A stretch of DNA of 44,451 nucleotides, from contig CANFSB010000011.1 in NCBI GenBank assembly GCA_947449495.1, positions 1 to 44,451 on the forward strand, written 5' to 3'. A program made the position numbers and the translations under genes. Positions 35,840 through 43,594 of this stretch are shown piece by piece; position 1 is the first letter of the stretch, and every line of letters begins with the position of its first letter. The stretch comes from Pseudomonadota bacterium. GTDB taxonomy: Bacteria; Pseudomonadota; Gammaproteobacteria; Steroidobacterales; Steroidobacteraceae. The notes under the pieces were generated by a model. That model had not been told where the DNA came from. It saw nothing but the letters and a program-made list of their open reading frames with translations, and did no database searches.

Positions 35840-35863
35840 CACCGCCGGCATCAGCCGGCGGTG
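35840..35863. terminator. Perfect hairpin between permease and suhB
   Basis: CACCGCCGGC, loop ATCA, GCCGGCGGTG is a perfect ten-base stem between two convergent genes. The loop contains the suhB stop codon (TGA on the leftward strand), so the stem overlaps the end of suhB. The rightward side has only GTCGTCTT after it. Confidence 0.6.
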
Positions 35864-36732
35864 TCGTCTTCGGCGGCTGATTTGATCAATGAAGCGGCCC
35901 GGGCGGCCGCTTCGCGATGCGCCTGTTCGATGGCTGCTTCGCGCAGATCTGAAGGCAGCAGTGGCGCAAATGACTCGACCAGCGCCATGAACACCCGCGG
36001 GTTGCCGGCAATGATGTTGCCGTTCTGACGGTATTCACCGCCGTCCAAAGTGCCCACCAAACCACCGGCTTCGCGCACCAGCAAGGTGCCAGCCGCGGTG
36101 TCCCAGGGCTTGAGGCCGATCTCAAAGAATCCGTCGGTGCGGCCGGCCGCCACATAGGCCAGATCCAGCGCTGCAGCGCCGGGTCGCCGCACGCCGGCTG
36201 CTTTGATCATGACGCTGCGCAACATGGCCATGTAAGGGTCCAAGTGCTGCAGGTTCTCGCTATAGGGGAAGCCCGTGCCGATGAGCGACCCTTCGAGGGT
36301 GCGCTGCTTACTGACACGCAGGCGCTTACTCTCAAGGTAGGCACCGCCACCGCGCGACGCGGTGAAGATCTCTTGCAGCATCGGGTCGTAGATGACCGCG
36401 TGTTCGATGGTGTCGCGCACCTGGCAGGCGATCGACACGCAGAACTGCGGAAAGCCGTGCATGAAATTGGTGGTGCCATCGAGCGGGTCGATGATCCAAG
36501 TCGTGTCGGAGTTGCCGCTAGCACCGCTCTCTTCGGCCAGAAAGGCATGGTGCGGATAGGCCGTATGCAGGATGTTGATGATCTCTGCTTCGGCCGAGCG
36601 GTCGATGCTGGTGACGAAGTCGTTGAGGCCCTTATTGGCCACCTCGACACCTTCAAATCGGGTCAGGCCCCGGACTATTAGGTCGCCGGCGCGGCGCGCG
36701 GCGCGCACCGCAGTATTAACGAATGGATGCAT
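35851..36732 (-). CDS. suhB: Inositol monophosphatase family protein SuhB
   Basis: Mg2+/Li+-sensitive phosphatase of inositol phosphates; E. coli SuhB also takes part in rRNA antitermination. The 293-residue product starts MHPFVNTAVRAARRAGDLI and carries FLAEESGASG, WIIDPLDGTTNFMHG (metal-binding Asp residues) and KPWDTAAGTLLVREAGG. All catalytic positions appear intact. It is about 25 residues longer than E. coli SuhB because of a charged, Ala-rich C-terminal tail. It diverges from trmJ, as in E. coli, with start codons 71 bases apart. Confidence 0.96.
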   Translation of the reverse strand: MHPFVNTAVRAARRAGDLIVRGLTRFEGVEVANKGLNDFVTSIDRSAEAEIINILHTAYPHHAFLAEESGASGNSDTTWIIDPLDGTTNFMHGFPQFCVSIACQVRDTIEHAVIYDPMLQEIFTASRGGGAYLESKRLRVSKQRTLEGSLIGTGFPYSENLQHLDPYMAMLRSVMIKAAGVRRPGAAALDLAYVAAGRTDGFFEIGLKPWDTAAGTLLVREAGGLVGTLDGGEYRQNGNIIAGNPRVFMALVESFAPLLPSDLREAAIEQAHREAAARAASLIKSAAEDDTAG

Positions 36733-36768
36733 GATTGAAGCGGGGCCGTGGCTCGGGACTGCGGGCGC

Positions 36769-36774
36769 TAGAAT
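36769..36774. promoter_or_regulatory. Possible divergent -10 between suhB and trmJ
   Basis: GCTAGAATACC holds TAGAAT for rightward trmJ and, shifted two bases, TATTCT for leftward suhB. Neither has a convincing -35, so this is only a candidate. Confidence 0.3.
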
Positions 36775-36803
36775 ACCAGACCCGCCACCGACCCCTGCCG
36801 CCG

Positions 36804-37565
36804 ATGCACAACTTGCCTATTCGATTTGTTCTGGTCGACACCAGCCACCCCGGCAACATCGGTGCCGTGGCACGCGCTATGAAGAACATGGCGCTGTCTG
36901 ATCTGGTGTTGGTCAATCCCAAGGACTACCCCAGCGACGAGGCTACCGCGCGCGCCTCCGGTGCCGATGACGTGCTGGCCGCCGCCCGCGTGGTGGCAAC
37001 ACTGGAAGAGGCCCTGGCTGATTGCCGCTTTGTAGTGGCCACCACAGCTCGCGAGCGTGATCAGAACTTCCGGGTGATCGATGCGCGCAGCGCTGCGCTG
37101 CAGTTGGTCGATGAAGCGCGTGCTGTGGATGCCGATGCAGTAGTGGCTGTGGTGTTTGGCACCGAGCGATTTGGCCTGACCAACCAGCAGTTGTCGCAGG
37201 CCAATGCGTTGCTGTGCATTCCCGCCAACCAGGACTATGCATCGCTCAACATTGCCATGGCCGCGCAGCTCATCGGTTACGAGATCTATATGGCGCGGCG
37301 GGCGGTAGAGGGTGTGCCGCCGGCGCGAGCGCGTGAGGTACCGCTGGCTGCCTCGGCAGATTTGGAGCGCTTCTATGCGCATCTGCAGCAGGTTATGGAT
37401 GAAGTCGGGTTTCGCGATCGCACGCAAAGTGGTCTGCATCTGATGAACCGTATCCGCCGCCTGTTCGGCAGGGCCGAGCCCGACATCAACGAGGTCAATA
37501 TCCTGCGTGGCCTGCTCACTGCTGTTCAAAAGCGCCGGCGTCGTGCCGGTCAGCACAACGCCTGA
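36804..37565 (+). CDS. trmJ: tRNA (cytidine/uridine-2'-O-)-methyltransferase TrmJ
   Basis: SPOUT-fold enzyme that methylates the ribose of position 32 in certain tRNAs. From ATG 36804 it has 253 residues; the in-frame region upstream lacks similarity. Motifs: IRFVLVDTSHPGNIGAVARA with the conserved Arg, MALSDLVLVNPKDYP, AVVFGTERFGLTN (knot) and IPANQDYASLNIAMAAQL. The C-terminal part is helical and Arg-rich. It lies 12 bases before the cysteine desulfurase, as the E. coli trmJ lies before the isc genes, but iscR is not between them. Confidence 0.96.
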   Translation: MHNLPIRFVLVDTSHPGNIGAVARAMKNMALSDLVLVNPKDYPSDEATARASGADDVLAAARVVATLEEALADCRFVVATTARERDQNFRVIDARSAALQLVDEARAVDADAVVAVVFGTERFGLTNQQLSQANALLCIPANQDYASLNIAMAAQLIGYEIYMARRAVEGVPPARAREVPLAASADLERFYAHLQQVMDEVGFRDRTQSGLHLMNRIRRLFGRAEPDINEVNILRGLLTAVQKRRRRAGQHNA

Positions 37566-37577
37566 CGGGGTTGCCTC

Positions 37578-39056
37578 ATGACTGCCACACCGGTGTATTT
37601 GGATCACGCTGCCACCACGCCAGTAGATGCGCGCGTTGCGACGGCCATGGCCGAGGTGCTGTCTGCGGGTCTGGGCAATCCGGCTTCCACGCATCCGCCC
37701 GGACGCGCCGCAGCGGCACGGGTGGCGCGCGCACGTGAGCAGGTGGGCGCCCTGATCGGCGCTGCTGCTGCCGATATTGTCTTTACCTCAGGGGCCACCG
37801 AGGCCAACGCGCTGGCGATTCTGGGGCATGTGCGCGGTCAGCCGGCCGAGCGGCGCAGCAAGGGCCACGTGCTGGCGCTGGCAACCGATCACAAAGCCAT
37901 TCTGGGACCCGTACAGCGGCTCGCTGACGAGGGGCTGGCCGTTACGCGCCTGGTGCCCGCTCGCGACGGCGTGCTGTCTGCAGATGCGCTGGCGGCGGCT
38001 CTGCGACCCGGCACCCTGCTGGTGAGTCTGGTGCACGTCAACAGCGAGACCGGCGTGGCGCAGGACCTGCCGGCGTTGGCGGCGGTCTGTCGTGAGCGCG
38101 GCGTGGCGCTGCACGTGGATGCGGCCCAGTCGGCCGGCAAGCTGCCGCTGGATGTGCAGGGCATCGATTACCTGTCGCTGACGGCGCATAAGTTTGGCGG
38201 ACCGCAGGGCGTGGGTGCGCTTTATGTGGCACCGGCCCGGCGCGTCACGCTGCAAGCGCAGCAGGTCGGCGGCGGTCAGGAGCGCGGCCTGCGTGCCGGT
38301 ACGCTGCCCACGCACCAGATCGTGGGCATGGGACTGGCCTGCGAACTTGCCCGCAGCGGGCGCGACGCATTGGCTGCGCACCTGCAGTCGCTACGCCAGC
38401 GGTTATGGCACGGCCTGGCCGACCTGCCCGGCGTGCTGCTCAACGGTCATGCGCAGCAGCGGGCGCCGGGCATCCTCAACCTGTCGTTTGAAGATGTGGA
38501 GGGTGAGAGCCTGCTGGCCGGTCTGCCCGAGCTGGCGGTGGCCACCGGCTCGGCCTGCAACTCCAGCAGTGGCGAGCCCTCCTATGTGCTGCGGGCGCTG
38601 GGGCGCGACACACAGCTGGCGCAGGCCTCGCTGCGCATGAGTCTGGGCGCTACCAGCACCGAGCAGGATGTCGACACCGCCATCGCCGCAGTGCGCCGCG
38701 AGCTGACACGCCTGCGGGCCTTGTCACCGGGCCTGCCGCCGCCGGTGGCCGACTGGCAGGCCCAGGGCTGGCGGGTGTTGCAGGGTGAGGCCGGCGAGCG
38801 CCGTCTGGGCACTTGGCTGCGGCTGCTGCTGGCCGTAGAGGGCGATAGGGTGGTGGCGGCGCGGTTTCAGGCTTATGGCTGTCCGCACACGCTGTCGGCC
38901 TGCCGCACGCTGGTTGGCGCGTTGCCAGGGCAGGGCCGCAGCACGCCGCGTGGTTCCCCGCCCGACTGGCTGGCACAGTCGGGCGCACCGACCGACAAGC
39001 TGGGGCGTATGCTGCTGCTCGAAGATGCCTTGCAGGCCGCGCTGTCTGCCTGGTGA
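37578..39056 (+). CDS. iscS: IscS-type cysteine desulfurase fused to a degenerate IscU-like domain
   Basis: PLP enzyme that takes sulfur from cysteine for iron-sulfur clusters and tRNA thiolation. The 492-residue product is about 90 longer than E. coli IscS. Residues 1-385 are a normal desulfurase: YLDHAATTPVDARV, TSGATEANALAIL, LHVDAAQSAGK, TAHKFGG with PLP Lys205, and GSACNSSSGEPSYVL with catalytic Cys327. The last 100 residues align with IscU: GERRLGTWLRLL (406-417), AYGCPHTLSA (432-441) and KLGRMLLLEDALQAAL (474-489). IscU Cys63 matches Cys435, but Cys37 matches Leu410, Asp39 matches Thr412 and Cys106 matches Arg477. A cluster cannot be held in the IscU way; sulfur relay or docking is possible. 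iscA follows 30 bases later. Confidence 0.9.
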   Translation: MTATPVYLDHAATTPVDARVATAMAEVLSAGLGNPASTHPPGRAAAARVARAREQVGALIGAAAADIVFTSGATEANALAILGHVRGQPAERRSKGHVLALATDHKAILGPVQRLADEGLAVTRLVPARDGVLSADALAAALRPGTLLVSLVHVNSETGVAQDLPALAAVCRERGVALHVDAAQSAGKLPLDVQGIDYLSLTAHKFGGPQGVGALYVAPARRVTLQAQQVGGGQERGLRAGTLPTHQIVGMGLACELARSGRDALAAHLQSLRQRLWHGLADLPGVLLNGHAQQRAPGILNLSFEDVEGESLLAGLPELAVATGSACNSSSGEPSYVLRALGRDTQLAQASLRMSLGATSTEQDVDTAIAAVRRELTRLRALSPGLPPPVADWQAQGWRVLQGEAGERRLGTWLRLLLAVEGDRVVAARFQAYGCPHTLSACRTLVGALPGQGRSTPRGSPPDWLAQSGAPTDKLGRMLLLEDALQAALSAW

Positions 39057-39086: not shown

Positions 39087-39410
39087 ATGGCCATTTCACT
39101 GACCCCTGCTGCTGCTGACCGCATCCGCAGCTTTCTTGTCTCGCGAGGCAAGGGCGTGGGTTTGCGGTTGGGCGTGCGCACTACAGGTTGCTCGGGCTAC
39201 GCCTACGTCATCGACTACGCCGACGAGATTGCGGCGGCTGACCAGGTGTTTGAGGACCAGGGCGTCAAGGTGCTGGTTGATCCCGAAAGCCTTAAGTACA
39301 TCGATGGCACCACGGTCGATTTTGTCCGCCAAGGTCTGGGCGAGTCGTTTCGCTTCATCAACCCCAAGGTGCAGGGTGAATGTGGCTGTGGTGAAAGCTT
39401 CAGCGTCTGA
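39087..39410 (+). CDS. iscA: Iron-sulfur cluster assembly protein IscA
   Basis: A-type carrier that receives and delivers iron-sulfur clusters. The 107-residue product begins [17 protein letters not shown] and has the three family cysteines: [15 protein letters not shown] and ECGCGESF at the C-terminus. [19 protein letters not shown] is typical. It follows the desulfurase fusion after 30 bases and probably shares its transcript. No iscU, hscB, hscA or fdx follows; ndk is next. Assignment as IscA rather than ErpA or SufA rests mainly on this context. Confidence 0.93.
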
Positions 39411-39457: not shown

Positions 39458-39886
39458 ATGGCGTTAGAGCACACCCTGTCCATCATCAAGCCCGACGGCG
39501 TTGCCGCCAACCTGATCGGCCAAGTCTATGGCCGCTTCGAGAAGGCCGGTCTGCGCATCGTCGCTGCCCGCATGCTGCAACTGTCCAAGGCCGAGGCCGA
39601 GGCGTTCTACGGCGTGCACAAGGCTCGTCCGTTCTTCAACGACCTGGTCGCCTACATGATCTCCGGTCCGGTGTTGGCTTCGGTGCTCGAAGGCGAGAAC
39701 GCCGTGCTGACGCATCGCGACATCATGGGTGCCACCGACCCCAAGAAGGCCGCGCCGGGCACCATCCGCGCTGATCTGGCCGAGAGCATCGAGCACAACG
39801 TCGTGCACGGTTCGGATTCGGCCGAGAACGCCGCTGTCGAGATCGCGTTCTTCTTCCGCGCGATCGAGATCTGCCCGCGCGCCTGA
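39458..39886 (+). CDS. ndk: Nucleoside diphosphate kinase
   Basis: Transfers the gamma-phosphate among nucleoside triphosphates through a phospho-histidine. The 142-residue product has the typical start [13 protein letters not shown] and the active stretch [12 protein letters not shown] with His117. Length and motifs match E. coli Ndk (143 residues). The ATG at 39458 follows GGAG by eight bases. The stop shares one base with the rlmN start (TGATG), so translation is coupled, as in the E. coli order ndk-rlmN. Confidence 0.98.
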
Positions 39887-41007
39887 TGACCGACACCCGC
39901 GTCAACCTGCTGGGGCTGACCCGTCCGCAGCTCGAGGCTTGGGTCCTCGAGCGTGGCGGCAAGCCCTTTCGTGCGCGCCAGTTGTTCCACTGGCTGTACA
40001 AGCGCGGCGAGACGCAGTTCGAGGCTATGACCGACCTCGCCAAGGCTTTCCGGCAACAGCTGGAAGCCGAGGCCGAGGTGCGGTTGCCGCAGGTCGTCAC
40101 GCGGCAGGATGCCGCTGACGGCACCATCAAGTGGATGCTGCGTGCCGATGACACGCAGGCCTTCGAGATGGTCTACATCCCCGACGGCACGCGCAGCACG
40201 CTGTGCATCTCGTCGCAGGTGGGCTGTGCCATGGATTGCAGCTTCTGCTCCACAGCGCAGCAGGGCTTCAATCGCAACCTGACTGCCGCCGAAATCGTCG
40301 GCCAAGTGTTTCTTGCCCAGAAAGAACTCGGCTTTGAGGCAGGCGATAACCGTCTCATCAGCAACGTAGTGTTTATGGGCATGGGCGAGCCGCTGGCCAA
40401 TTTCCGCAACGTAGTGCCTGCACTGCGCATCATGCTCGATGATCTGGGCTTCGATTTCTCGCGCCGGCGTCTGACACTGTCGACCAGCGGACTGGTACCG
40501 CAAATCTACAAGCTCGCCGAAGAGACCAATGTGGCGCTGGCCGTGTCGCTGCATGCGCCCGATGACGAGCTGCGCAGTCAGTTGGTGCCCATCAACCGGC
40601 TGCATCCGATTGCCGAGTTGTTGCAGGCTTGCTGGCATTACATCGATGAACAAAACGGCCGCAGCGTCACGTTCGAATATGTGCTGCTCGATGGCATCAA
40701 TGATTCGCCCGCGCAGGCGCGGGCATTGGCCAAGCTGCTCAAGGGGCATCCGGCCAAGGTCAATCTCATCCCTTTCAATCCGTTCCCCGGGACGCAGTAC
40801 CGCAGGTCGCGTCCTGAGTCGATCAAAGCCTTCCTCGACCAAGTGCTCAAGGGTGGTGTCATGGCTACTGTGCGACGCACACGCGGCGATGACATCGATG
40901 CCGCCTGCGGCCAGTTGGTCGGGCGCGTCATCGATCGCACCACCTCGCGTCTGGGTAATCGCAACATTGCGGTGGTGGTTGAGAACAGTGTCGAGTCCGT
41001 GTCATGA
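39886..41007 (+). CDS. rlmN: 23S rRNA/tRNA adenine-C2 methyltransferase RlmN
   Basis: Radical SAM enzyme that methylates A2503 of 23S rRNA and A37 of some tRNAs. The 373-residue product contains the cluster motif GCAMDCSFCSTAQQG with Cys114, Cys118 and Cys121, the accessory FMGMGEPLANF, LSTSGLVPQI, and the methyl-carrying Cys341 in DIDAACGQL. The N-terminal part has FRARQLFHWLYKRG. It overlaps the ndk stop by one base and the pilF start by four. Confidence 0.98.
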   Translation: MTDTRVNLLGLTRPQLEAWVLERGGKPFRARQLFHWLYKRGETQFEAMTDLAKAFRQQLEAEAEVRLPQVVTRQDAADGTIKWMLRADDTQAFEMVYIPDGTRSTLCISSQVGCAMDCSFCSTAQQGFNRNLTAAEIVGQVFLAQKELGFEAGDNRLISNVVFMGMGEPLANFRNVVPALRIMLDDLGFDFSRRRLTLSTSGLVPQIYKLAEETNVALAVSLHAPDDELRSQLVPINRLHPIAELLQACWHYIDEQNGRSVTFEYVLLDGINDSPAQARALAKLLKGHPAKVNLIPFNPFPGTQYRRSRPESIKAFLDQVLKGGVMATVRRTRGDDIDAACGQLVGRVIDRTTSRLGNRNIAVVVENSVESVS

Positions 41008-41768
41008 AGTCGCTGCTGGCGCTGGGTTGTGCGTTGCTGCTGAGCGGCTGTGTGGCCACCGGCGGCACATCGGGTCGAACCACATCTGCCAAAGATGCCG
41101 CCAAGGCCAACGTGCAACTGGGCGTGGCCTATATGCAGCAGGGGCAGTTGGCGCTGGCCAAAGACAAGCTCGAGCGCGCAGCCAAGCAGGATCCGCGCGG
41201 TGCCGAAGTGCATACAGCGTTGGCGTACCTCAATGAACGGCTTGATAGACCCGCTGAGGCCGAGGGCGAATATCGCTTGGCCTTGAAGCTGTCACCGGGT
41301 AATTCCGAAGTCGGCAACAATTTCGCTGTCTTCCTATGCCGCACTGGCAAGGTTGACGATGCGCTCAAGCAGTTTGAATCCGCGACGCGTGATCGGCTCT
41401 ACACCACGCCTTGGGCCGCGTTCACCAACGCCGGTGTGTGCCTGCGCTCGGTGGGTCGTGGTGGTGAGGCGATCCCGCTGCTGCAACAGGCGATCAGCAT
41501 CCGTCCCAATTACACGCCGGCTGTTTACGAACTGGCCGATCTGCAACTGGAGTTGGGATCACCGGGGGTGGCAGGTCAGGTTGTTGATCGCTATCTGGCC
41601 CTGGGCTTGATTGCACCCGATGTGTTGCTGCTGGGCGTGCGCGCTGCGATGGCGCGTGAAGAGCGCCAAACTGCGATGGCGCTGGCAACCCGCCTCAAGC
41701 GCGAGTTCCCCAATTCGCCTGAATTGCGACAGGTGTCCACGCTGTTGGGTGAGGGCGTACAGCCATGA
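41004..41768 (+). CDS. pilF: Type IV pilus biogenesis lipoprotein PilF/PilW
   Basis: Outer-membrane lipoprotein pilotin that helps place the PilQ secretin. The 254-residue product starts with a lipoprotein signal (MKSLLALGCALLLSGC; Cys16 in LLSGC), then TPR repeats: ANVQLGVAYMQQGQLALAKDKLERA, EVHTALAYLNERLD, and later AVYELADLQLELGSPG. Its place between rlmN and rodZ matches the PilF position in E. coli and Pseudomonas. The ATG overlaps the rlmN stop, and its own stop overlaps rodZ. It implies that type IV pili are present, although no other pil gene lies here. Confidence 0.93.
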   Translation: MKSLLALGCALLLSGCVATGGTSGRTTSAKDAAKANVQLGVAYMQQGQLALAKDKLERAAKQDPRGAEVHTALAYLNERLDRPAEAEGEYRLALKLSPGNSEVGNNFAVFLCRTGKVDDALKQFESATRDRLYTTPWAAFTNAGVCLRSVGRGGEAIPLLQQAISIRPNYTPAVYELADLQLELGSPGVAGQVVDRYLALGLIAPDVLLLGVRAAMAREERQTAMALATRLKREFPNSPELRQVSTLLGEGVQP

Positions 41769-42256
41769 CCAATACTCAGCAGTCTGCTGCGCAGGCGCAG
41801 CTCGAGGGTCTGGTGCTGTTTGCCACACCCAGCGCACCGGATCCGGCCGAGGCCGCGCCGGCGCCCAGCACGCACGGTGGTCAGCTCTCTGCCGCGCGGC
41901 TGCGCAAGGGCATCAGCCTGCAGAAGGTGTCCGAGCATCTGCGTTTAAGTATCGAAGCCATTGAGGCCCTCGAGGCCGATCGTCACGACGAGTTGGGTCC
42001 GCAGGTCTATGTGCGCGGGCATCTGCGTCGCTATGCCGATTTTCTGGGTGAGACACTCGCGCAGCCTCAGGATGCTTCGGCAGATCTATCGCATGACCAC
42101 GAGTTGGGCGGGCAGCGCAGCTTCATGTCGCCACTGGTGCGCGTGCGCACCGGACGCGGACCACAGTTGTCGTTGCAGCGGGCACTGTTGATCGCAGTGG
42201 CTGTGCTGGCAGTTCTTATTACCGTTGGCCTGCTCGCGCAGCCGGCGCTTTCCTGA
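41765..42256 (+). CDS. rodZ: Short RodZ-like protein: HTH domain plus membrane helix
   Basis: RodZ links the MreB cytoskeleton to the cell wall machinery. The 163-residue product has a helix-turn-helix domain (LSAARLRKGISLQKVSEHL, then RLSIEAIEALEADR and VYVRGHLRRYADFLG, about 41-100), a basic stretch (VRVRTGRG) and one membrane helix (LLIAVAVLAVLITVGLL, about 141-157). The protein stops six residues later. E. coli RodZ has 337 residues, including a periplasmic C-terminal domain, which is missing here. The ATG overlaps the pilF stop by four bases. hisS starts 30 bases on; ispG, which sits here in E. coli, is absent. The HTH and membrane anchor could still serve MreB, since that half does the binding. 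Confidence 0.85.
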   Translation: MTNTQQSAAQAQLEGLVLFATPSAPDPAEAAPAPSTHGGQLSAARLRKGISLQKVSEHLRLSIEAIEALEADRHDELGPQVYVRGHLRRYADFLGETLAQPQDASADLSHDHELGGQRSFMSPLVRVRTGRGPQLSLQRALLIAVAVLAVLITVGLLAQPALS

Positions 42257-42286
42257 TTGCTGCGGTTTTGAGGGTTGCATAGCGTC

Positions 42287-43594
42287 ATGGCCGAAAACAC
42301 CTTTGCAGTGCAGTCTGTCCGGGGCATGAACGATGTGTTGCCAACCCAGGTGGCTGGTTGGCAGCGCTTGGAGCGCGTGACGCGCGAACTGTTCACGGCC
42401 TATGGTTTTGAAGAATTGCGTGTGCCCATCGTCGAGCACACTGCGCTGTTCAAGCGCGCCATCGGTGAATACACCGACATCGTCGAAAAAGAGATGTACA
42501 CCTTCACCGATTCCGGTGGCGACAGTCTTACGCTGCGTCCTGAAGCTACGGCCGGTGTGGTGCGTGCGGCGATCAGCAACGGCCTGCTGCGCGGTGCGCG
42601 CCTGAAGCTGTGGACCAGTGGCCCGATGTTCCGCCACGAGCGCCCGCAAAAGGGCCGCTATCGTCAGTTTCATCAGATAGACGTAGAGGCCATCGGCTTT
42701 GCCGGGCCCGATATCGACGCCGAGCTCATTGGTCTTACGGCACGCTTGTGGCGCCAGCTGGGCATCACCCGCGTCAAGCTCAAGCTCAATTCGCTGGGCA
42801 CGGCACAGGCGCGTCGCGTCTATCGCGAGAAGCTGGTCGAATATTTCCGTGGCCACGAGTCGCTGCTCGATGCCGACAGCCGTCGCCGGCTCGAAGGCAA
42901 TCCGCTGCGTATCCTGGACAGCAAGAACCCCGACATGCAGGCCTTGGTGGCCGCTGCGCCGCTGCTCACCGATCACTTGGACAGCGAATCACGCGAGCAT
43001 TTTGACGGGCTGTGCGCCATGCTGGCCGGCATGGGCATCGACTACGTGATTGATCCGCGTCTGGTGCGCGGTCTCGATTACTACTCGCGCACCGTGTTCG
43101 AATGGGTCACCGATGCGCTGGGCGCACAAGACGCCGTCTGCTCCGGTGGTCGCTATGACGACCTTATTCCGCAGCTCGGTGGTGAGGCACAGCCGGCCAT
43201 CGGCTTTGCGATGGGTATCGAGCGCGTGGTCGAGTTGATGGGCCAAGCCGGTGCAGGCGATGCGCCGCTTGCGCCTCATGTCTACATCATCGCCAGCGGT
43301 GAACGTGCGCAGCGCACCGCGCTAGCGCTGGCTGAGCGCTTGCGCGATGACCTGCCCTCGCTGCGGTTCCAGAGCAATATGGGCGGCGGCAATTTTAAGG
43401 CGCAGTTCCGGCGCGCCGATCGCAGTGGAGCGTCGCTGGCGCTGATACTGGGAGATACGGAACTCGAACGTGGTGTGGCTTCGCTCAAGTCGCTGCGCGA
43501 CGAGTCAGGCCAAACCCAATGGCCGCTGCCCGACTTGGCAGCGCGCATCCCGGCCATCCTTGCGGATCTGGCCGGCCCTACTGAAGCAGGCTGA
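42287..43594 (+). CDS. hisS: Histidyl-tRNA synthetase
   Basis: Class II synthetase charging tRNA-His. From ATG 42287 it has 435 residues; a TTG four codons upstream is less likely. Motifs: VRGMNDVLP, LRPEATAGVVRA, motif 2 FRHERPQKGRYRQFHQIDVE, the histidine site RGLDYYSRTVFEW and motif 3 AIGFAMGIERV. The C-terminal anticodon domain (HVYIIASGERA, FQSNMGGGNFKAQFRRAD) is complete. It precedes yfgM by 15 bases in the usual gammaproteobacterial order. Confidence 0.98.
   Translation: MAENTFAVQSVRGMNDVLPTQVAGWQRLERVTRELFTAYGFEELRVPIVEHTALFKRAIGEYTDIVEKEMYTFTDSGGDSLTLRPEATAGVVRAAISNGLLRGARLKLWTSGPMFRHERPQKGRYRQFHQIDVEAIGFAGPDIDAELIGLTARLWRQLGITRVKLKLNSLGTAQARRVYREKLVEYFRGHESLLDADSRRRLEGNPLRILDSKNPDMQALVAAAPLLTDHLDSESREHFDGLCAMLAGMGIDYVIDPRLVRGLDYYSRTVFEWVTDALGAQDAVCSGGRYDDLIPQLGGEAQPAIGFAMGIERVVELMGQAGAGDAPLAPHVYIIASGERAQRTALALAERLRDDLPSLRFQSNMGGGNFKAQFRRADRSGASLALILGDTELERGVASLKSLRDESGQTQWPLPDLAARIPAILADLAGPTEAG

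Follow-up and report, generated by a model that had tools for sequence, protein, structure and literature searches.

A degenerate IscU domain fused to or encoded beside the cysteine desulfurase IscS in Steroidobacteraceae and related bacteria: a candidate metal-free sulfur acceptor

SufU is a zinc-dependent sulfurtransferase in which an IscU fold acts as the desulfurase-bound sulfur acceptor of the SUF system, and SufE and CsdE, the acceptors of SufS and CsdA, have an IscU-like core that works with one cysteine and without metal. For SufE, a persulfide pocket has been described (PMC12803347). In E. coli, Lys103 of the scaffold IscU contacts IscS, the K103E substitution abolishes binding of IscU to IscS, and C63 and C106 of IscU lie about 4 A apart (PMC2854127); a disulfide between IscS C328 and IscU C63 is reported (Kato 2002, as cited in PMC2854127), and human complexes show a spacing of 3.4-3.8 A between the donor cysteine and the C63 equivalent (PMC11021402). 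In tRNA thiolation, TusA accepts the persulfide of IscS (PMC2854127, PMC11784392), and two tRNA thiolations were down to about 5% when Trp45 of E. coli IscS was replaced by Arg (PMC2854127). ISC and SUF are mentioned as mutually exclusive in Gammaproteobacteria (PMC10631705), and class II ribonucleotide reductases carry a fused IscU-like domain, mostly without ligand cysteines (PMC9669993).

The window analysed here, a stretch of 44,451 nucleotides from a genome of the family Steroidobacteraceae, carries an open reading frame in which IscS is continued by a degenerate IscU domain, here called IscU* (Table 1). A sequence-only reading of this DNA had supposed that such a fusion might be unremarked, and indeed no title or abstract opening listed in searches of an open-licence library deals with this protein or with any fusion of IscS to IscU, while exact phrases for such a fusion found no match in open-licence full text. 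In E. coli, too, the genes from ndk to hisS come after the isc region, there with extra genes between and ispG before hisS, and the locus of the window corresponds to the E. coli isc region minus iscR, hscB, hscA, fdx and iscX. Since the gene order matches that of the E. coli isc region, the domain is iscU in its own place. In the part 41765-42275, ispG (in E. coli between rodZ and hisS) is not present between the rodZ-like gene and hisS, and the rodZ-like protein has a length of only 163 aa. No hscB, hscA, fdx, iscX or iscR gene was seen in 163 locus stretches, of which many are short; iscA was found in the same stretch in 158, with its Cys positions visible in 157 and the remaining one (L231) cut by the stretch end.

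Table 1. Features of the fusion locus, in positions of the window
Feature	Position	Strand	Basis or remark
suhB-like inositol monophosphatase, divergent	35851..36732	-	Inositol_P; placed as in E. coli isc locus
trmJ-like methyltransferase, upstream neighbour	36735..37565	+	SpoU_methylase; placed as in E. coli isc locus
IscS-IscU* fusion ORF	37578-39056	+	492 aa
IscS cysteine desulfurase part, residues 1-384	37578..38729	+	Pfam/NCBIfam, 3lvm structural match, catalytic residues
Arg43 at E. coli IscS Trp45 position (TusA/ThiI docking)	37704..37706	+	alignment column, codon checked
Catalytic Cys327 of IscS part	38556-38558	+	codon checked
Linker replacing E. coli IscS C-terminal tail and first IscU helix	38730..38771	+	comparison with E. 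coli IscS tail; model
Degenerate IscU domain (IscU*), residues 399-491	38772..39050	+	NifU_N, family profile, predicted fold
Leu410 at IscU Cys37	38805..38807	+	alignment, codon checked
Thr412 at IscU Asp39	38811..38813	+	alignment, codon checked
Cys435 at IscU Cys63, motif GCPH; sole ligand retained	38880..38882	+	alignment, codon checked
Lys474 at IscU Lys103 (E. coli IscS contact)	38997..38999	+	alignment, codon checked
Arg477 at IscU Cys106	39006..39008	+	alignment, codon checked
iscA, A-type carrier, next gene downstream	39087..39410	+	NCBIfam IscA 152.2 bits, above cut-off
ndk, rlmN, TPR protein (pilW-like), HTH protein (rodZ-like), hisS	39458..43594	+	Pfam; E. coli order

The IscS part matched Aminotran_5 of Pfam (E 3.4e-69) and two IscS models of NCBIfam (E 5.4e-127 and 1.4e-123), both below the curated equivalog cut-offs (for one of them 412.9 bits vs 643.2). 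Equivalents of His104, Lys206 (the PLP lysine) and Cys328 were present in all 104 aligned IscS sequences, including the protein of the window, which combines these desulfurase residues with an IscS-type sequence. Its structural match to E. coli IscS (3lvm) reached Z 55.1 with an rmsd of 2.5 over 384 residues, tied with other IscS/NFS1 entries. The AlphaFold2 model of the full-length fusion (pLDDT 95.8, pTM 0.92) places a helix at 391-395 and then a strand at 399-407 at the junction of linker and domain. As the structure search with this model listed only desulfurase-type chains, the IscU* domain was modelled separately. The C-terminal tail of IscS is shorter than in E. coli: in the 18 loci with separate genes that were read first, IscS has 381-395 aa between the beginning of the match and the stop codon, vs 404; this length was taken from the stop positions, the alignment gaps at IscS columns 387-391 being in part local alignments that end early.

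The C-terminal region had been aligned to IscU by the sequence-only reading, with profile searches and structure prediction proposed as checks, and both led back to IscU. The domain piece alone matched NifU_N with 24 bits (E 4.6e-5), barely above the Pfam cut-off of 22, and within the whole protein the score was 20.3 bits, below it; searched against Pfam with E values up to 10, the piece gave no other match and no SufE. A family profile of 43 relatives (A1) gave a far clearer result against E. coli IscU in the PDB (2kqk; E 6.4e-14, 55 bits, IscU residues 23-124) than against SufU (24 bits). Its members matched NifU_N in 32 and the iscU model TIGR01999 in 31 of the 43 cases (E 1e-3), and the SufU-type model SUF_scaf_2 in three. 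The AlphaFold2 model of the domain alone had a pLDDT of 95.2 and a pTM of 0.86; the first ten Foldseek matches were all ISCU/IscU chains (TM 0.79-0.84 by query length), and the best structural matches were to ISCU (8pk8_D, Z 14.8, rmsd 1.8, 97 residues aligned; E. coli IscU 3lvl_A, Z 12.9, rmsd 2.2, 97 aligned). Nothing in a viral structure library matched at E 0.001. Profile and predicted fold together confirm the observation that residues 399-491 form an IscU-type domain that has lost its ligands. An origin from SufU was ruled out, because IscU scores far higher and the domain occupies the place of iscU in the locus. The first IscU helix is absent in the clade of the window; the idea that all fused forms lack it proved wrong, since L024, L025, L026, L028 and L061 are among the fused forms that have it.

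The residues that the sequence-only reading had assigned to the IscU ligands (Leu410, Thr412, Cys435, Arg477) and to the catalytic position (Cys327) were exact in alignment and codons. Its claims that three of four ligands are lost and that Cys435 alone is kept and conserved in close homologues also held in a set of 109 distinct relatives (47 fused, 62 separate), where C37, D39 and C106 were retained in none and C63 in 107. In the same set residue 106 is Arg in 101 and Lys in 4 (R/K in 105/109), residue 64 is Pro in 108 in place of Gly, residue 105 is Gly in 97 in place of His, and position 103 is Lys in 101 and Arg in 6. In the two sequences without C63, K103 is altered too (Q, R), and R106 is gone in one. 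The same ligand losses recur throughout the 109 relatives and are thus not due to chance; IscU* keeps one member of the metal and cluster ligand set C37, D39, C63 and C106. In one respect the sequence-only reading needs amending: stand-alone genes beside iscS (62 of the 109 rows) show the same losses and the fusion state changed repeatedly, so the loss is independent of fusion.

The suggestion that the arrangement is widespread in related genera was borne out. The first 54 loci comprised 36 fused and 18 separate forms, some loci being copies of one species; 11 of the 18 separate genes share 4 bases with the end of iscS (script-chosen start codon), one lies after a 5-base gap and the others overlap or abut. 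All 60 further family regions contained the gene with an open frame, 14 fused and 46 separate, most of these regions having been preselected by an iscS or NifU_N match and the last batch partly by iscS alone. Altogether loci were read in 90 of the 100 family genomes (30 from the first set, 60 from the further regions), and every one of these 90 genomes has the gene, fused or adjacent. A private fusion or assembly accident was ruled out by these loci together with named MAGs; the domain of L028 (family genome G004) is identical to that of L042, a Steroidobacteraceae MAG. An order-wide profile search gave matches in 112 of 117 genomes (89/89 good ones), an upper bound for IscU* because scores below about 58 bits overlap with canonical IscU (L134, 57.2 bits). 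Of 40 order loci inspected, 39 were degenerate and one encoded a canonical IscU (L281, genome G526). On the IscS tree, built without rows L057, L202, L210, L219 and L253, the fused or separate state requires 12 gains or losses, no fewer than 7 of them on starred branches. All the branches that diverge earliest carry separate genes, suggesting fusion to be the derived state.

Several side observations were made during this survey. Two records titled Acinetobacter phage (CAKLQH020000011.1 and CAKLQF020000009.1) carry iscS beside a NifU-like gene; despite their titles, they may represent contigs from bacteria. In Alteromonas sp. a30 (L046) the genes run trmJ-iscR-iscS-ndk, and the interval from iscS to ndk contains neither an iscU nor an iscA match. 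In L275 and L284, on early branches of the order, IscU* retains a Cys at 106 besides Cys63; judged by sequence, these look like an intermediate stage in which C37 and D39 are gone and C106 not yet. Other degenerate IscUs stand alone beside iscS in the class: L131, L132 and L140 have C106 without C63, L133 and L144 have both, and L142 has neither.

The docking face of IscS is altered as well. The column of Trp45 holds Trp in 19/19 canonical IscS controls, which were the analyst's choice among the loci in hand, vs 0/101 in the family set (78 with Arg), 1/36 in the order set and 1/13 in other degenerate loci; the hub surface for TusA and ThiI, as defined by Trp45, is absent from the protein of the window. 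TusA was found in 14/100 family genomes (7/70 good ones) vs 288/369 class genomes; the 86 family genomes in which it was not found, some of them incomplete, include that of the window, where MnmA is present. In those 14 genomes, and in G265, G170, G300 and G349 outside the family, TusA coexists with IscU*, so strict replacement of TusA by IscU* is unsupported. None of the 100 family genomes had HscB above the cut-off; 36 weaker matches spanned roughly the initial third of the profile, the pattern expected of J-domain proteins. In the genome of the window no HscA was above the cut-off. The domain of the window has only P100 and K103 of the LPPVK motif, and the HscA/HscB chaperone route acting on this motif was not found. 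The same genome encodes a SUF operon with a SUF regulator gene, sufB, sufC, sufD (207 bits, under the cut-off of 222), sufS and a true sufU, and its only two NifU_N genes are the fusion and sufU. Among the family genomes, 98/100 have a NifU_N match, with a strong one away from the isc locus in 92 by hand count; the best-scoring 30 of these 92 all contain CGD, GC and a third Cys under a strict pattern.

The best explanation for these results, to which a probability of roughly 45% is given, is that the C-terminal domain is a repurposed IscU, a metal-free sulfur acceptor with a single cysteine that is docked on its own IscS and, in the protein of the window, covalently tied to it. The relatives share this altered scaffold, whether as a neighbouring gene or as a fused domain, which suggests conversion to a sulfur carrier and not abandonment to decay. 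For such a pair we infer docking, persulfide transfer, a client and a position of Arg477 beside Cys435. The metal site would have been lost once SUF built the clusters, and sulfur uptake from IscS would have gone on. Cys327 would make a persulfide from cysteine, and the mobile IscS loop would reach the site on IscU*, which Lys474 and the native docking face would keep in place. Sulfur would then move to Cys435, predicted at a helix start, and the Cys435 persulfide would be passed to a downstream acceptor. The distance of about 4 A between C63 and residue 106 in IscU suggests that Arg477, which replaces Cys106, lies next to Cys435, where it might stabilise a thiolate or a persulfide. Fusion would render the separate docking helix, gone in the clade of the window, dispensable.

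Likely candidates for the client would be MnmA (tRNA 2-thiolation), given the missing TusA and the lost TusA-docking Trp of IscS, or the neighbouring IscA. In vitro, IscS together with MnmA is sufficient, and B. subtilis works without a carrier (PMC11784392), so that a TusA-less cell may need no substitute. A wider proposal is doubtful: after SUF takeover, ISC would have been rebuilt across the order as a two-part sulfur-delivery enzyme, IscU becoming a third kind of sulfur carrier with IscU fold (metal-free, with Cys-Pro and Arg) and IscS giving up its TusA face, and the pair, repeatedly fused, would replace the TusA relay for tRNA 2-thiolation.

The main rival is a docking subunit, in which IscU* would fill the IscU site of IscS in a structural or regulatory role, setting its activity or excluding acceptors, with Cys435 incidental or redox-sensing; this possibility is judged to be on the unlikely side. 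E. coli IscU and TusA compete for IscS and alter its activity (PMC11302665), and the confident whole-chain model and the 12 changes of fusion state agree with such a role. It is also consistent with retention of the domain without C63 in 14 of 163 rows of a wider set (order and class), including the fused L020, L277, L278 and L289. The same set, in which C37 is kept in 0, D39 in 5 and C106 in 7 sequences, also provides evidence against it: K/R103 is present in 147/149 sequences with C63 and absent in 9/14 without it, although a pure mimic should retain Lys103 in the latter. The association (Fisher 5.8e-10, without tree correction; the canonical IscU L281 was removed before the count) was not seen between C63 and the control columns P100, D112 and A113. 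After tree correction, on a tree without rows L057, L202, L210, L253, L259 and L280, six supported independent pairs were left, of which four agree, none disagrees and two tie (p 0.125), so that this test is underpowered. Five rows without C63 keep K/R103, and three of these (L131, L132, L140) have Cys at 106. As read from these sequences, retention of C63 together with the IscS-contact Lys103 favours the sulfur acceptor over a docking mimic, which would also leave C63 in 107/109 and Arg106 in 101/109 relatives unexplained.

Some points speak against the acceptor. Human ISCU2 Cys95, equivalent to Cys63, was not persulfidated even without Cys138 in the presence of iron (PMC11021402); Cys95 held iron there, and IscU* should not bind iron. 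The 14 rows that keep the domain without C63 count against it as well, as does the shortened IscS tail, which in E. coli contributes to the contact with IscU.

Improbable is a reduced Fe-S route, by which IscS-IscU* would hand sulfur, or a cluster held partly on Cys327 and Cys435, to an IscA scaffold. It would fit the presence of iscA in nearly all loci and the ability of an NFS1 cysteine to substitute an ISCU ligand in human complexes (PMC11021402), but D39, whose equivalent is essential in ISCU2 according to the same source, is gone in 109/109 relatives, no genome of the 100 has HscB above the cut-off and the SUF operon is present.

Selection on the domain was estimated from 20 pairs, some repeating a species: dN/dS was 0.10-0.38 in 19, one being without a value, and 0.04-0.21 for IscS in the same pairs, the domain being higher in 17/19, with 0.38 in the nearest pair on few changes. 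Decay, by which IscU became dispensable after SUF takeover and a remnant rides along with iscS, is very improbable: it would account for the lost ligands and accessory genes, the joint absence of C63, K/R103 and R/K106 in 8/163 rows, the further degenerate IscUs in other families and the higher dN/dS of the domain, but the frame is open in all 60 extra regions, and the new near-invariant residues P64, G105 and R106 and the dN/dS of 0.10-0.38 contradict simple decay. Of the interpretation in the sequence-only reading, which had set an acceptor, a docking mimic and a decaying fusion side by side, the homology, the losses and the spread remain; simple decay becomes very improbable, and co-retention of C63 and Lys103 favours the acceptor over the mimic.

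Genomes with iscS, iscA and a gene of IscU type are easily taken to have a working ISC system; in this order that would be misleading, should the ligand loss have the meaning it suggests. The protein also offers a natural covalent IscS-IscU pair and a natural single-cysteine IscU, in which an acceptor role of Cys63 is accessible without the other ligands. If it is true that IscU* stands in for TusA, a new tRNA thiolation route would be at hand.

Compared with the described systems, IscU* shares with the IscU/ISCU scaffold the fold, the alignable length, the iscS-iscA position, the docking Lys103 and Cys63, but it differs by the loss of C37, D39, C106 and H105, by a family without HscB above the cut-off and, in the protein of the window, by the absence of the first helix. 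Unlike SufU, it has lost the zinc ligand positions and shows a weak SufU profile match (24 vs 55 bits) outside the SufU sequence class, and a true SufU coexists in the genome. The IscU-like domain of ribonucleotide reductases is similarly an IscU fold, ligand-poor and fused to another enzyme, but its host enzyme is different and a Cys63-Arg106-Lys103 set is not mentioned in the parts of that source considered here (PMC9669993). TusA and, as proposed, IscU* are both sulfur acceptors of IscS, but TusA binds another IscS face and was not found in the genome of the window. SufE and CsdE have the IscU-like core, the single cysteine and, as proposed, the lack of metal in common with IscU*, which differs in having no SufE match in Pfam (piece searched at E up to 10), in its partner IscS and in its derivation from IscU by position and sequence. 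On the best reading, the logic would be that of SufE on SufS, but built from IscU.
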